Shown one piece after another: positions 437 through 53,206 of a stretch of DNA of 64,000 bases; position 1 is the first letter of the stretch, and each line of letters starts with the position of its first letter. The notes below the pieces were generated by a model, which made no database searches, was not told the DNA's origin, and saw nothing but the letters and a program-made list of their open reading frames with translations. The translations under genes and the position numbers were made by a program. This stretch comes from Oscillospiraceae bacterium (GTDB taxonomy: Bacteria > Bacillota > Clostridia > Oscillospirales > Ruminococcaceae): assembly GCA_009778065.1 (NCBI GenBank), contig WRKM01000017.1, forward strand, positions 1 to 64,000. Reading direction: 5' to 3'.

Positions 437-530
437 CCGTAGTTTTATGTCTTTGTTTCCCTTTGTTTTCCGAAGATTTTGTTTCGTTGTTCAATTTTGA
501 GAGAGTTGTGAAATATATAAAATAAAAAAT

Positions 531-567
531 ATCACCGCACCGGTTTAAAGGGTGCGGTGATTTTTTT
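531..567 (+). terminator. rRNA operon terminator
   Basis: A strong GC-rich hairpin, CACCGCACC paired with GGTGCGGTG, is followed by seven T residues. It lies about 135 nt after the 23S end and fits an intrinsic terminator for the rRNA operon. Confidence 0.85.
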
Positions 568-695
568 GTCTTTTTTGTTTGAGCGGCTTAAAGGAGAAAA
601 CAGAGGTCATTTTCCTCGGCATCTTGCGATATAATTACCATTATAAGTTTCTTTCAGAGAGTAAATAGACAATTGAAAGGAAGGGTTTGATTAAA

Positions 696-2132
696 ATGGT
701 AATTGAAAAGACTGCGGCGGCATATATACGTGTTTCCACTGAAGAACAGACAGAGTTAAGCCCGGACAGCCAATTAAAGGAAATTCGCAAATACGCCGAG
801 AGCAAAAGTATTAAACTGCTTGAGGAGCATATCTATGTTGACGCGGGTATAAGCGGACGCAGTACCGCAAAACGCCCCGAATTTAATAAAATGATTAGTA
901 TTGCTAAAATGAAGGCTAAGCCGTTTGATATAATTTTACTTTGGAAGTTTTCCCGATTCGCACGCAACAGAGAAGACAGTATAGTTTATAAATCCATACT
1001 TCGTAAGGAGTGCGGAATAGATGTTGTTTCAATCAGTGAAGCTTTAGGCGATGATAAGACCTCTGTTTTAATTGAAGCTCTTATCGAAGCCATGGACGAA
1101 TACTACAGCCTTAATCTCGCAGGAGAAGTAAAGCGCGGTCTGCTTGAGAAAGTAGAGCGAGGTGAGCCGGTCACTACACCATCTTTCGGATATAATATTG
1201 TTGACAGCCGATATATTATTGATGAAGAAAGAGCAAAGCTTGTCCGCTCTTTATTCTATGACTATCTGAACGGTACTGGTTTACGCGCACTTGCCGTAGG
1301 TATGAATAACATGGGCGTTCTCACCAATCGAGGCGGAAAGTGGGACAGGTTTAATATCGAGTATATCCTGCGTAATCCCGTTTATATAGGTAAAATCAGA
1401 TACAATACCGAACATCGGACGAGAAGAAAATACGAGGATAAAGGAATCATCATAAAGCAAGGGTTGCATGAACCTATAATTGACGAGGAAACCTTTAATA
1501 AAACACAAGAACGGCTTGCCTATATTAAATCCACCTTTAACAAAGGAGAACACCACGAACCCCGAAGCGGGAACGACTTTATTCTGCGCGGTTTGATTAA
1601 ATGCAGTAATTGCGGCTCTCCCCTAATTCAAGCGCAGAAAGGCTCTCTTCTTCAATGCAATGGTTATATAAAAGGAAAGTGTACAACGTCGCACGCGATT
1701 AAGGTCAGGATAATAAATGAAGAGGTTTTAAAGTGCGTTGAAGAAGATATTGAACTCGACGGCTTTTATATATCTCCCTGCGTTACGAAAAAAATTGAAG
1801 AAGATGTTTCAGGCGAGCGGATTAAGAAATTGAATAAAAAACTTTTAAGGGTAATGGAAGCATACGAAAACGGGGTTTACAGCCTCGCCCGTTTTAAAGA
1901 TAGAAAAGAAAGAATAGATGATGAAATAAAAAAGCTCGAAGCTCTTTTAATCATGAAAAAAGAAACGCCGGTTATCGGTGCTTCTGAAAGAAAAGATAAT
2001 ATTAAGGCGGGTTTAGCGGTTTTCACCGACCCCGATGTTTCTGAAACGGAAAAGAATCTTATGCTTAGACACATCATTTTAAAAATTATTTTCGAGCGTA
2101 AAAATAATGAAATTTCAATCTTCTACCGTTAA
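696..2132 (+). CDS. Large serine recombinase (resolvase/recombinase/zinc-ribbon)
   Basis: A site-specific DNA recombinase of the large serine family. The N-terminal resolvase domain carries the catalytic serine in YIRVST (S14 from this start) and the downstream arginine motif FSRFARN. A Recombinase domain follows (roughly 155-270), then a zinc ribbon with CSNCG and a later Cys pair (about 305-335) and a charged coiled-coil C-terminus. The ATG at 696 is preferred over the TTG at 687 because AAAGGAAGGG sits about 10 nt before the ATG but almost touches the TTG. The length of 478 residues is typical. No excisionase, att repeat or phage gene is near, so it appears to be an orphan, possibly a relic of an element integrated beside the rRNA operon. 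Confidence 0.93.
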   Translation: MVIEKTAAAYIRVSTEEQTELSPDSQLKEIRKYAESKSIKLLEEHIYVDAGISGRSTAKRPEFNKMISIAKMKAKPFDIILLWKFSRFARNREDSIVYKSILRKECGIDVVSISEALGDDKTSVLIEALIEAMDEYYSLNLAGEVKRGLLEKVERGEPVTTPSFGYNIVDSRYIIDEERAKLVRSLFYDYLNGTGLRALAVGMNNMGVLTNRGGKWDRFNIEYILRNPVYIGKIRYNTEHRTRRKYEDKGIIIKQGLHEPIIDEETFNKTQERLAYIKSTFNKGEHHEPRSGNDFILRGLIKCSNCGSPLIQAQKGSLLQCNGYIKGKCTTSHAIKVRIINEEVLKCVEEDIELDGFYISPCVTKKIEEDVSGERIKKLNKKLLRVMEAYENGVYSLARFKDRKERIDDEIKKLEALLIMKKETPVIGASERKDNIKAGLAVFTDPDVSETEKNLMLRHIILKIIFERKNNEISIFYR

Positions 2133-16147: not shown

Positions 16148-16222
16148 AAAATTTTATTCACGAATTTTATTCCGGTAACACAAAAGGCGGGGTTTTCCCG
16201 CCTTATATATTGTGAGCTTAAA

Positions 16223-16723
16223 TTAAGACATACGTTTTAACTCTTCGAGTGAGGGTATTTTTTCTCTTTCAGTAATGCTTTCGATTTCTTTCGCGAGTTG
16301 GTCGAGTTCATCGCTGATTTTCGCTCTATCACTTGTATCGGCTGTATCGGCCATTCCCGTTACAACGAGTTCTCTCATACGCTCTAACATTTCTTTAATT
16401 TCATCCATTGCACCCGCTGAGGTCTCTATAAGCGAAATCCCGTCAGCTTCAAATCGGGAAGCAGCCTCAAGTCCGCGGATTTGATTTCGTATTTTTTCGG
16501 ATTTTGAGAGACCGGCGGCGTCTTCGGTAGCACGGTTTATGCGATACCCGCTTGACAGTCTTTCGCTGGCTCCTCTTTCGGTTTCACTCACACTTTTTAA
16601 ATGCCGTGTCGATGTTGCGGGTATTGGAGTGAAGATGACAGTTCCCTCGGCGGAGAAAGGAAAGCTTGCAATCATTATAGCCGAAACAGCAATTGCGAAT
16701 ACACGTTTGATTGCTTTTTTCAT
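16223..16723 (-). CDS. Secreted protein with flagellin N-terminal-like domain
   Basis: A 166-residue protein with a classical Sec signal peptide (KKAIKR, hydrophobic core to about residue 21, likely cleavage near FSA-EG at 25). The mature part (about 38-150) aligns by eye with the flagellin D0/D1 N-terminal helix: LSSGYRINRATEDAAGLS, then QIRGLEAASRFEADGISLIE and MLERMRELVV. The C-terminal flagellin helix is missing. True flagellins have no Sec signal and use the flagellar export apparatus, so this is not an ordinary filament subunit. AAAGGAGG precedes the ATG. The promoter is sigma-A type, unlike the sigma-D promoter of the flagellin gene at 22356-23984. The function is unknown. Confidence 0.85.
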   Translation of the reverse strand: MKKAIKRVFAIAVSAIMIASFPFSAEGTVIFTPIPATSTRHLKSVSETERGASERLSSGYRINRATEDAAGLSKSEKIRNQIRGLEAASRFEADGISLIETSAGAMDEIKEMLERMRELVVTGMADTADTSDRAKISDELDQLAKEIESITEREKIPSLEELKRMS

Positions 16724-16777
16724 TATAACCCGCCTCCTTTGTGAAATTTAACCAAATTTGCCTCTTTATTAAATACT

Positions 16778-16805
16778 ATTATACCATATAATTTCTATTT
16801 GTCAA
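16778..16805 (-). promoter_or_regulatory. Sigma-A promoter of the secreted flagellin-like gene
   Basis: TTGACA, 16 nt and TATAAT on the minus strand, 55 nt before the ATG. No sigma-D motif was seen in this intergenic region. Confidence 0.75.
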
Positions 16806-17264: not shown

Positions 17265-18071
17265 TTATTTGAAAAGATTCGCAAGAGCCATTGCTTTTCT
17301 GATGTCGCCCTGATAGCGTACAACGCCGTTCATAATCGCATCGCGATAATTATACTTGCCTTTTGAGATTTTCATAATCTCTTCATAAGAGGTTTCAAAA
17401 GTACCATCGCGGTCATCGTAAACAGATTGAATAATGTGCGGCTGTTTACCGTTGCCGTCGTCCTTTATTGCTACGAAGAAAGTTCCCACATCAATAACCA
17501 CTACCTGCACTGCAACAGGCACTTCGACATTCTTCAGGTTCGCCTTTGAAATTACCTTCCAGAGAGCCGAGGTCGCATTATCGAGCGTAGGAGCCGCTTT
17601 TCTTCTGCCGCCTCTTGCGGGAGCGGCTACAGCTTTAGCCTTAGGTGCGGCTTTTGCCTTAGGAGTAGCGGCGACTTTAGCCTTAGGTGCGGCTTTTGCC
17701 TTAGGTGCAACAGCGGCTTTTGCTTTAGGAGCAACAGCGGCTTTAGCTTTAGGTGCGGCTTTTGCTTTAGGAGCAACAGCGGCTTTAGCTTTGGGTGCGG
17801 CTTTTGCTTTAGGAGCAGCGGCGGCTTTAGCCTTGGGTGCTGCTTTTGCTTTAGGAGCAGCAACGGCTTTCGCCTTGGGTGCTGCTTTTGCTTTAGGAGC
17901 AGCAACGGCTTTCGCCTTGGGTGCGGCTTTCGCCTTAGGAGTCGCCTTTTCCTTTGCGGATGCCGGGGTCGCTTTAACTGTTGTTGTTTTTACTTCGCTG
18001 ACGGGAACGGTCGAAGCTTTCACCGTTGCCGCAGGTACTACCGTTGCGGTAATTTTTACATCGTCTGCCAT
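17265..18071 (-). CDS. Lys/Ala-rich repeat protein with SCP2-like C-terminus
   Basis: A 268-residue protein in three parts. Residues 1-45 are Val/Thr-rich. Residues about 45-150 consist of 6-8-residue repeats of the type APKAKA, resembling the basic tail of histone H1-like bacterial proteins. Residues about 165-268 (from ALWKVISKA to the C-terminus) resemble an SCP2 sterol-carrier fold, with YEEIMKISKGKYNYRDAIMNG and YQGDIRKAMALANLF near the end. The ATG at 18071 is chosen because AAAGGAA lies upstream; the frame is open further 5' without SD. A basic tail suggests nucleic-acid or polyanion binding, but that is inference. Confidence 0.82.
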   Translation of the reverse strand: MADDVKITATVVPAATVKASTVPVSEVKTTTVKATPASAKEKATPKAKAAPKAKAVAAPKAKAAPKAKAVAAPKAKAAPKAKAAAAPKAKAAPKAKAAVAPKAKAAPKAKAAVAPKAKAAVAPKAKAAPKAKVAATPKAKAAPKAKAVAAPARGGRRKAAPTLDNATSALWKVISKANLKNVEVPVAVQVVVIDVGTFFVAIKDDGNGKQPHIIQSVYDDRDGTFETSYEEIMKISKGKYNYRDAIMNGVVRYQGDIRKAMALANLFK

Positions 18072-18098
18072 GCCAATAAAATTCCTTTCAAAAGTAAA

Positions 18099-18116
18099 TT
18101 TACGGCACGCCGTAAA
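18099..18116. promoter_or_regulatory. Perfect 18-bp palindrome in the leader of the repeat protein
   Basis: TTTACGGC, two nucleotides, GCCGTAAA lies between the promoter (18159-18187) and the ATG at 18071. It could be an operator or a leader hairpin. Confidence 0.5.
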
Positions 18117-18158
18117 AACCGAAAAAGAAGGTACAGAGTGCCAAATGATTACACAACA

Positions 18159-18187
18159 ATGATAACACACTTAATAATATAATTCAA
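18159..18187 (-). promoter_or_regulatory. Promoter of the Lys/Ala repeat protein
   Basis: TTGAAT, 17 nt and TATCAT on the minus strand, about 90 nt before the ATG. Confidence 0.6.
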
Positions 18188-22355: not shown

Positions 22356-23984
22356 CTATCCGAGTAATTGAAGTATTGCTTGAGGAGCCTGATTGGCTTG
22401 AGCGAGCATTGCCTGTGCAGCCTGTTGAAGAATGCTGAACTTGGTGTACTCAATCATTTCTTTAGCCATGTCAGTATCGCGAATCTGAGATTCAGCGGCT
22501 GTCAGGTTCTCGTGAGTTGTAGTCAAGTTTCTTACCGTGGATTCGAGACGGTTCTGCAATGCACCGAGAGCGGCTCTTTGCATAGAAACCTTACCGATAG
22601 CGTCGTCTGCCTGTTGGATAGCGACTCTTGCTAACTCGCGGGTCGAAACATCTAAGTTCGCTACCCCGAGGGCGCTCGCACCCATGTCATCGATAGAGAG
22701 ACCTACTCTTTGGTCAGCTACGCCGTTAGCACCGATTTGGAATACAAGACCTTCGCCTACGCCGCCTGCATTGTCTTTACCTACGCCCGCGCCGCTTGCC
22801 ATTGTACCTACTGTTACAGCCGCGCCTGCCGATACGGCGGTAGAAGCCATGAACTTAGTGATACCATCATCGGGAGCACCAGAAGATGTCAACTTAATTT
22901 CGTAGTCGAGTCCCGCTTTTCTCAGGATGTTAGCGAGGTCTGCTTCTGTGTACTCAACGCCTGTAGACAGGAAGATGGTGAATGTACCGTCTTTGTTCTG
23001 AGGGCTGCTGTCCGGTGTTTTGCTTTGTACCCATTCTTGACCGGGCGAAACAGATGTAGAAATCTCGAATGTACGGGTGTCTTCGCCGTAGTTGTTGGAT
23101 ATGAACTGAATCGTATCCGCATAATTCTCGGTTCTGCCGGTAATCAGGAAAGCATCAGTCAATGAGAATGTTGCAGATTCTGCTCTTGTTCCTGCTACGG
23201 TCGGACCTATGGACGACTCTTGAGAAGCTGTTACCATGCCGGTTCCGAGTTTTAAGCTGACTTCGGGAATCGCACCTGACTGACCTTCTGCCTGTACGGC
23301 TTTTTTAATGAGGTCGTCGATTTGCGCCTGGGTGTAGGTTTCGCCGTTAGCGAGGTTAATGGTAAGCTCTGTGCCGTTTTCGTTCCATTTAGCGTTTTCG
23401 CCGCCCTTACCGGATGCTCCGGTGGTCAGTGAAATGCTTACGCCGGCAACACTGGAAGCGAGAACTGTTCCGGGCGAAAGGTCGCCGGCGGACGCGTCGG
23501 TTATAAGTACGCCGTACTTAGGACCGAATACGCCTGCTGTTGCGCCGCCGCCACTGAGCGAACCGTCGAGTAACTTAATTTTGTTATACTCGGTGGAGGT
23601 TGAGATTCTGTCGATTTCGCTCTTAAGAGCGTCAACTTCGAGTTGGATAGCTTTACGGTCGTCTTCGTTCCTGTAGGTTCCGTTTGCCGACTGGTTAGCA
23701 AGCTCTCTCATTCTCTGAAGAATCTCGTGAGTTTCGTTCAAACCGCCTTCAGCGGTCTGGATGAGGCTGATGCCGTCGTTGGCGTTTCTGATTGCCTGGG
23801 CTAAGCCTCTGATTTGGCTTCTCATTTTTTCGGAGATAGCCAGACCTGCCGCGTCGTCGCCGGCACGGTTAATACGCAGACCCGAGGATAATTTCTCGGT
23901 TGCTTTCTTAACGCCGATGACATTTGTGCTAAGCTTGTTGTTAGCATTAATCGCGTTTAGGTTGTGTTGTACTACTAATGCCAT
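22356..23984 (-). CDS. hag: Flagellin
   Basis: A 542-residue flagellin. The conserved D0/D1 N-terminus is [19 protein letters not shown], then [20 protein letters not shown] and [16 protein letters not shown]. The central 300 residues are variable and Gly/Thr/Ser-rich. The C-terminus has [30 protein letters not shown] and the terminal [18 protein letters not shown] precedes the ATG at 23984; the frame is open for another 69 codons but that is leader. It forms the filament after export through the flagellar apparatus. It is expressed from a sigma-D promoter with a CsrA-site-like leader hairpin. Confidence 0.97.
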
Positions 23985-24102: not shown

Positions 24103-24129
24103 ATATCGGCATTTCTAAGCAAAAGTTTA
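24103..24129 (-). promoter_or_regulatory. Sigma-D (sigma-28) promoter of flagellin
   Basis: On the minus strand TAAA, 15 nt and GCCGATAT match the sigma-D consensus exactly, about 120 nt before the flagellin ATG. Confidence 0.92.
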
Positions 24130-51719: not shown

Positions 51720-51833
51720 CAACCACGCAGAGGAGGGAATGCTATGTGAAAGAAAAAATTCATATGTCGTCAAGAAGTATTGATACTACTTATCATCATG
51801 GAGTTTTTTAGCTATTATCCATATCTTCCATAA
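51720..51833. repeat. 114-bp direct repeat, copy 1
   Basis: Identical over 114 bp to 52769-52882. It covers the last 15 codons of the small membrane protein gene (ending WKIWIIAKKLHDDK) plus 66 bp downstream of its stop. Confidence 0.93.
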
Positions 51834-52154
51834 CACAAGAACTCCCAATTGAATGCTTGAGACAATCCACCATATAACAATAGTTCTAAGACCTAAATCA
51901 AGCCCGAACCCCCCTTTTGTATCGTATGGTCCGAAAGGGTTATATAGTTCAATTAAAACGGGATAAATTGGTGTGGATAATATAAAATATCCCAATCCAA
52001 TATTTTGAAAACGTATACATATAATTATAATTATAAAACTTGAGATTGCTACGTAAGGTACATCTAAATCAAATAGTGGAAAAAAAATAAAATGTATAAA
52101 ATATGTTATTATTTGAAGTAGAATTGCAATCCCAATTTTCTTAAAAAACTTCAT
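51786..52154 (-). CDS. Four-helix small membrane protein, paralogue A
   Basis: A 122-residue protein, almost entirely hydrophobic, with about four membrane segments. It begins MKFFKKIGIAILLQIITYFI and ends LWKIWIIAKKLHDDK. It is a paralogue of the protein at 52835-53206: same start pattern, a YFILSTPIYPVLIELYNPF core against YFLLSLPIYPVLIILNNPY, and an identical C-terminus. The 3' end is part of a 114-bp repeat. No known family or function. Confidence 0.75.
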   Translation of the reverse strand: MKFFKKIGIAILLQIITYFIHFIFFPLFDLDVPYVAISSFIIIIICIRFQNIGLGYFILSTPIYPVLIELYNPFGPYDTKGGFGLDLGLRTIVIWWIVSSIQLGVLVLWKIWIIAKKLHDDK

Positions 52155-52194
52155 CTTAATTAATTAATGGCTGAAAGCGCTTTTATTTTCGATT

Positions 52195-52641
52195 TCAGCC
52201 ATTACCCTTTCTTTTAATATGATTAATCAAATATTTTATTATTCTCACAATTACACACACTGTACTTTGAGCTAAAAACACAGCTATACTTAACATGAAC
52301 ACTTGCGACGAAGCATCAAAAATACTTATATAGCCACCACCTAAAGATGGTAAATATAATATGGCTTGCCTGTTAGAGTATAGCATCGCAAATCCATAAA
52401 GCACAGGAATCCCCACCACCCAATACCTAATTCTATCAGCAAATATTATGCATAATATACCGATAATGCAAATTATAGGAATCGTAATATACAATTGTAT
52501 TGCCGGGTCTGAATTTGGAAATAATGTGCGTAAGTTCCTTAGTGGAAGCACAAATATAAAAAAATAAAATATAAATTGAAATAGTAAAACCCAAAACAAT
52601 TTAGGTCTTTGTGTGAAAGAATTTAGTTTCATGTGTGTCAT
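52195..52641 (-). CDS. Small membrane protein, hypothetical
   Basis: A 148-residue protein with four predicted membrane segments and a basic tail (HIKRKGNG). MTHM or the second Met, three codons later, could be the start; AAAGGAAAATG favours neither strongly. It sits between the two paralogues A and B but is not similar to them. Its stop codon lies inside an inverted repeat AATGGCTGAAA/TTTCAGCCATT (52167-52203). Function unknown. Confidence 0.7.
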   Translation of the reverse strand: MTHMKLNSFTQRPKLFWVLLFQFIFYFFIFVLPLRNLRTLFPNSDPAIQLYITIPIICIIGILCIIFADRIRYWVVGIPVLYGFAMLYSNRQAILYLPSLGGGYISIFDASSQVFMLSIAVFLAQSTVCVIVRIIKYLINHIKRKGNG

Positions 52642-52715
52642 TTTCCTTTAATTACTTAGCTCTTTGCGAAACTCGCAAAAGCCTTTATTAACGCACCTTT
52701 TCAAGTGCGAAAATA

Positions 52716-52744
52716 TAGACATTTCCTCCACTTTGTGGTATAAT
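52716..52744 (+). promoter_or_regulatory. Plus-strand promoter inside the island
   Basis: TAGACA, 17 nt and TATAAT point rightward into the 114-bp repeat and antisense to the 3' end of paralogue B. All island genes are on the other strand, so this would make an antisense or small-peptide RNA. Confidence 0.55.
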
Positions 52745-52768
52745 TAAGATATAACCACATACCAAAAC

Positions 52769-52882
52769 CAACCACGCAGAGGAGGGAATGCTATGTGAAA
52801 GAAAAAATTCATATGTCGTCAAGAAGTATTGATACTACTTATCATCATGGAGTTTTTTAGCTATTATCCATATCTTCCATAA
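52769..52882. repeat. 114-bp direct repeat, copy 2
   Basis: Identical to 51720-51833. On the plus strand it contains AGGAGG, 9 nt and a GTG opening a 21-codon frame (52795-52860, MKEKIHMSSRS...); whether this is translated is unknown. Confidence 0.93.
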
Positions 52883-53206
52883 TATAAATATAACAACTTG
52901 AATAACCAGTACAATACACCAAGGAACAACCCATTCAAGACCCCACCCAAGTCCGAAACTGTCATCAGGTGCATAAGGATTATTTAGAATAATTAAAACG
53001 GGATAAATGGGTAATGATAATAAAAAATATCCAATTCCTATATTCCATAAACGCATCCACAAAAGTGAAAGAATAAAGCTTGATATAACAAGAAATAGCA
53101 CATCTAAAACAGGACTCACACCTATTAATGGAAATAAGATGTAATGTATAAGATATGTTACTATTTGAAACAGGAACGAGATTCCGATTTTCTTAAAAAT
53201 ATTCAT
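52835..53206 (-). CDS. Four-helix small membrane protein, paralogue B
   Basis: A 123-residue protein, homologous along its length to paralogue A at 51786-52154 and identical in the last 14 residues. It starts MNIFKKIGISFLFQIVTYLI. The DNA is identical only in the last 48 coding bases and the downstream 66 bp, while the 5' part has diverged strongly. This contrast suggests recombination or conversion at the 3' end. Function unknown. Confidence 0.75.
   Translation of the reverse strand: MNIFKKIGISFLFQIVTYLIHYILFPLIGVSPVLDVLFLVISSFILSLLWMRLWNIGIGYFLLSLPIYPVLIILNNPYAPDDSFGLGWGLEWVVPWCIVLVIQVVIFILWKIWIIAKKLHDDK

Follow-up and report, generated by a model that had tools for sequence, protein, structure and literature searches.

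The window (the whole stretch of DNA that was analysed, 64,000 nucleotides of an Oscillospiraceae contig) carries on its minus strand a 166-aa open reading frame (16223..16723) in which a leader precedes a flagellin N-terminal domain; the frame runs from 16723 to 16223, exactly as the initial annotation gave it. The gene is flanked by a PD-(D/E)XK transposase-family ORF and an O6-methylguanine-methyltransferase-type ORF. Upstream, also on the minus strand, lie a ribosome-binding site, AAAGGAGG (16733..16740), and a sigma-A promoter (16778..16805) with TTGACA and TATAAT separated by 16 bases, a score of 12/12, and a TG preceding the -10 element (extended -10). A terminator-like hairpin is found 3' of the stop (16184..16204, minus strand). 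In 3.3 kb, 12 promoter-like sites were detected, where shuffled sequence gave 4.7 on average, and the one of the window gene was the only perfect site. A pattern scan revealed no sigma-D-like site near the ORF and one (TAAA-N15-GCCGATA, 24104..24129, minus strand) upstream of the true flagellin gene hag (22356..23984, minus strand), which encodes both Flagellin_N and Flagellin_C. The earlier assignment of a sigma-A rather than a sigma-D promoter was thus borne out.

The Pfam Flagellin_N profile matched residues 41-152 (16268..16603, minus strand) with an E value of 1.1e-29 and a score of 103.7 bits (cut-off 26.6), and the conserved flagellin block that had been noted (LSSGYRINRATEDAAGL, QIRGL, DGISLIE and MRELVV) is present in the ORF in full. 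Flagellin_C had no match in the ORF, in agreement with the claimed absence of the C-terminal flagellin part, and two further weak Pfam matches were both under their cut-offs. The proposed architecture, a Sec-type leader plus Flagellin_N without Flagellin_C, is supported for the window ORF. The N-terminal halves of PDB flagellins also matched, down to E 6.8e-26, as did the 'flagellin homolog' chains 3k8v, 3k8w and 2zbi, which we take to be Sphingomonas proteins. An AlphaFold model (4 sequences) had a mean pLDDT of 56.1, showing helices only, and is unreliable.

A second copy of the gene was detected in G064, a genome from the same genus but from a distantly related species, with 71% identity over residues 1-165. 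It encodes 218 aa (L037:1501-2157), and its leader, SAEGTVI stretch and ribosome-binding site align with those of the window copy. The promoter regions of the two copies had a local alignment score of 43, which none of 2000 shuffles reached (maximum 28). The G064 copy has a 48-residue in-frame tandem repeat of the C-terminal segment (counterpart in the window gene at 16226..16369, minus strand, borders approximate), and the repeat units differ at 2 of 144 bases. The repeat starts have a common 12-base stretch, one base off in the tail, which suggests how the repeat may have arisen. The contig of the G064 copy also encodes a secreted GH11-like enzyme that carries List_Bact repeats and, as judged by eye, a dockerin-like C-terminus (L099 2847-5366, plus strand).

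In both copies, hydropathy predicts a typical Sec-type signal peptide, as had been proposed for the window gene, where it comprises residues 1-27 (16643..16723, minus strand). The leader of the window copy reads MKKAIKRV-FAIAVSAIMIASF-PFSAEG and is tripartite, with a charged start, a 13-residue hydrophobic stretch and a polar end; the 13-residue hydropathy maximum is 2.48 in the window copy, where it starts at residue 8, and 2.40 in the G064 copy. The SAEGTVI stretch is identical in both and is flanked by two variable stretches. Signal peptide cleavage follows the -3/-1 rule, and a putative cleavage site at AEG|T, conserved in both copies, fits this rule. No cysteine is found in the rest of the window protein beyond the leader, and no anchor motif is visible in it. 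A search of its own genome for the source of the leader returned short matches only, the best of which (E 1.5e-5) falls on bases that precede the ORF.

The gene is not a contig-end artefact: it is internal to a 68-kb contig and has a terminator of its own, and its relative is internal to a 32-kb contig. That it is a recently broken duplicate of the local hag was also ruled out, given 51% identity over residues 50-153 and a separate clade. Five Flagellin_N matches were found in its own genome: three flagellins, the window gene, and a weakly scoring 439-residue frame (31.2 bits) that we read as FlgL-like. All three Flagellin_C matches of this genome fall in the three flagellin frames. G064 has two such matches, one in a flagellin frame of 888 residues and the other in a frame of 37 residues where a contig begins. 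No intact gene with Flagellin_C only was found in either carrier genome, the 37-residue G064 frame being not judgeable at its contig start. A second flagellin of its own genome (G000, contig C18, L100 about 473-1339, minus strand) is a 289-residue frame in which an aberrant DAAALLA replaces the usual DAAGLA.

The window gene and its G064 relative had a pS of 0.205 (dS 0.24), compared with 0.65-0.91 for jag, yidC, yidD, rnpA, rpmH and hag of the two genomes; 14 window genes were put to this comparison, the other seven being unmatched in the supplied G064 stretches, which were chosen from the DNA-match search. The pair was also the strongest DNA match by bits in the surrounding 12.8 kb (532 bits, 83%; next 205 bits), and a groEL stretch reaches 72% DNA identity between the two genomes. 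The homology of the two loci spans the promoter and ORF only, with none between the copies in the 3' flank (317/1000 shuffles equally good) or further upstream of the promoter (960/1000). Because of the low pS of the pair and this restricted homology, transfer of the gene together with its promoter, later than the divergence of the two species, is the most likely history. Both carriers are draft assemblies, with contamination values of 1.42 and 2, and a misassigned G064 contig would alter which species was the partner but leave the transfer standing. A tblastn search for a mobile carrier returned 171 records from plasmids and 10 from phages, none of which reached 60% identity; in the 10 records listed for each, the named features were flagellin or none, or the record was unannotated. 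Viral contigs yielded one ordinary flagellin, and a 29-base stretch common to both copies yielded none.

The gene was present in two of the 71 genomes of the genus, its own and G064. The protein was matched at E 0.001 or better in 45 of the 71, and the remaining matches were taken for ordinary or cut-off flagellins, judged from frame length and partial match. Among the matches listed, no further relative so close was detected in 393 genomes of the order, 395 of the family, 390 of the class and 387 of the phylum, and none so close among 283 relatives of G064; these draws overlap, and far more diverged relatives would escape the E limits of 1e-38 (phylum draw) and 1e-36 (G064 relatives). A contig scan by exact peptides of the window copy, all of them absent from the G064 copy, found one ordinary flagellin and could miss relatives. 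Five short Flagellin_N frames were read and rejected as relatives: those of G470, G622 and two of G081 run off contig ends, and that of G140 is a short complete flagellin. The fetched stretches of G825, G921, G830:C93 and G1142 stop at the contig end, and most of the other short frames (e.g., G457, G184, G516, G691, G084, G830:C277 and G1159) begin in the first few hundred contig bases. In G1069 (contig C2, L126 580-1089, plus strand), a long contig contains a Flagellin_N frame of 170 residues that lacks both a leader and the C-terminal part.

In a tree of residues 53-152 with 49 flagellins, the two copies formed one clade (support 0.998, stem 0.58), and they have changes in common at positions at least 80% conserved, for example N91F, A92E, Q100E, A102S, L106M, A120V and Q122T. 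The first frequency table had 94 rows besides the pair, many of them badly aligned, and was cut by motif to 49 (45 dropped) before the tree and the conservation counts, which favours typical flagellins. Of the positions that are at least 90% conserved among these flagellins, 22 of 27 are retained in both copies in residues 53-99, 6 of 10 in 100-119, 4 of 5 in 120-152 and 1 of 3 in 153-165. In D0, none of the 3 scorable positions is kept in both, the window copy keeping one and the G064 copy none. The median real flagellin keeps all; the lowest rows score 0.33 in D0, as low as the window copy, and 0.63 and 0.60 elsewhere. Because the conserved positions are kept in residues 53-99 and not in D0, the spoke and first D1 helix appear to be held and the filament-packing end lost, with few D0 positions to judge by.

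Flagellin normally exits by the flagellar type III route, and both of its ends are needed for the filament. The window protein has probably been co-opted from flagellin for a predicted function away from the flagellum; candidate roles put forward in the initial annotation are a secreted decoy, an assembly modulator and a surface adhesin. The best explanation, which we hold with moderate confidence, is a real single-gene, horizontally transferred unit (promoter, ribosome-binding site and ORF) encoding a Sec-exported flagellin homologue that acts outside the filament. The leader fused before the flagellin start would direct the protein to the Sec route, and cleavage after AEG would release a 139-residue soluble helical protein. 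With the C-terminal partner helix absent, the D1 face would be free and its amphipathic helices exposed, and these may bind one another, a matrix or surface ligand, or flagellin. In favour of this explanation are the complete gene signals, an intact relative that shares the leader, promoter and ribosome-binding site and differs by in-frame indels only, the low pS, the well-supported clade on its long stem, the retained spoke and D1 residues, the constraint on residues 53-118 and the Vibrio precedent described below, whereas the rarity of the gene (2/71), the neutral-like identity of the copies, a dN/dS interval including 1 and the poor structural model count against it.

The main rival is a near-neutral chimeric relic, in which the 5' part of a flagellin gene was joined to a leader, carried between species and is now drifting with little or no function; we regard this as possible, though not as the probable account. 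The differences between the copies are nearly equal across the three codon positions (28/24/28), and their amino acid identity of 0.712 is that of a neutral simulation (mean 0.713; 80 substitutions, 4000 runs). Both results favour drift, as does the rarity of the gene in the genus with no further copy in the wider draws, among the matches listed. The whole-ORF dN/dS was 0.71 (bootstrap interval 0.42-1.25), and the values by block, given without intervals, were 0.37 (residues 53-118), 1.30 (28-52) and 0.92 (119-165). However, neither copy has a stop, as in 13% of the 4000 neutral runs, the indels between them are all multiples of three, and the promoter and ribosome-binding site are retained in both. 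Residues 53-118 are conserved beyond the neutral expectation, with an observed identity of 0.83 that was reached in 1.7% of the stop-free neutral runs. Since the whole-ORF identity follows the simulation and only this block exceeds it, the two copies alone prove constraint for residues 53-118 only. The long stem with core flagellin residues held also speaks against a relic, though some of its length may date from before the leader was joined on. The pseudogene alternative raised in the initial annotation is thus weakened by the intact relative in a second species with its leader, promoter and ribosome-binding site, and keeps in its favour the amino acid differences, which match neutral drift.

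It is unlikely, in our view, that the protein is a surface mimic of flagellin D1 engaging host flagellin receptors (TLR5) as an agonist or a non-signalling ligand. The TLR5 hot spot on B. subtilis flagellin is given in passages of PMC5247705 as R89, L93 and E114; the counterparts, mapped by motif, are present in the window protein as R115, L119 and E139, and G064 carries the hot-spot residues twice through its 48-aa repeat. An N-terminal D1 piece of Vibrio flagellin is described as active on human cells (passages of PMC10005431), and flagellin without D0 as binding TLR5 without signalling (passages of PMC5578693). The three residues are, however, ordinary conserved ones (R 0.98, L 0.98 and E 0.98 in the 49 flagellin rows), and since flagellins in general have them, their retention requires no receptor and would lend a mimic weak support. 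If the protein were a filament subunit whose leader is processed, or an outside modulator of filament assembly, it would find its partner in the full-length flagellins of both carriers, and the spoke and D1 helix contacting such a partner are kept, but we consider this highly improbable: the lack of Flagellin_C, the Sec-type leader and the sigma-A rather than sigma-D promoter support the earlier case against incorporation, which is strengthened by the finding that both copies have lost conserved D0 residues (3 positions) and by the lack of an intact frame with Flagellin_C only in the carriers.

The window protein has in common with FliC/Hag (PF00669 + PF00700) the homologous N-terminal domain (103.7 bits) and the spoke and D1 helix residues, and differs in its Sec-type leader, the absence of Flagellin_C, the lost D0 residues and the sigma-A promoter. 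The presumed Sphingomonas entries differ from it as longer chains (the PDB entries that matched have 351 and 326 residues) in a Gram-negative outer-membrane setting. We know of no Sec leader in Sphingomonas p5. Passages of PMC8286568 describe p5 of Sphingomonas sp. A1 as a flagellin homologue and surface alginate receptor; both it and the window protein are flagellin homologues, and p5 is set at the cell surface. By analogy, the best reading is that the window protein may be comparable in kind to the flagellin-homologous proteins of Vibrio. Of these, FlaE and FlaF keep both flagellin ends. In passages of PMC6692518 and PMC8306008, FlaE and FlaF are described as flagellin homologues that form no part of the filament and become components of the biofilm matrix, and PMC6692518 describes Vibrio flagellin-homologous proteins binding matrix polysaccharide. 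A place outside the filament would be common to both, argued for the window protein from its missing parts; the Vibrio proteins are described as excreted via the flagellar apparatus (passages of PMC6692518 and PMC8306008), whereas the window protein has a Sec-type leader.

A search of the open-licence PMC literature found no paper on a Sec leader plus Flagellin_N without Flagellin_C, consistent with the earlier statement that no family of this architecture has been described. More speculatively, and with rather low confidence, the gene may represent a new type of mobile Sec-secreted protein of the flagellin D1 surface, exchanged as a single gene among flagellated species, able to multiply its C-terminal unit in frame and engaging whatever recognises D1 (flagellin, matrix, a competitor or a host receptor). 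A half flagellin on the Sec route, with its packing residues dropped and its gene mobile between species, would, if true, show a filament protein becoming a free secreted one, and the window gene would be a small and directly testable case of this change.

Two other features of the window were observed. An SCP2-domain protein (17265-18170, minus strand; 2.7e-7) is preceded by a long PKAKAA-type repeat that by eye is histone-H1-like, an unusual pairing. Small membrane-protein ORFs lie at 51786-53206 (minus strand), where those at 51786-52154 and 52835-53206 look alike by eye.
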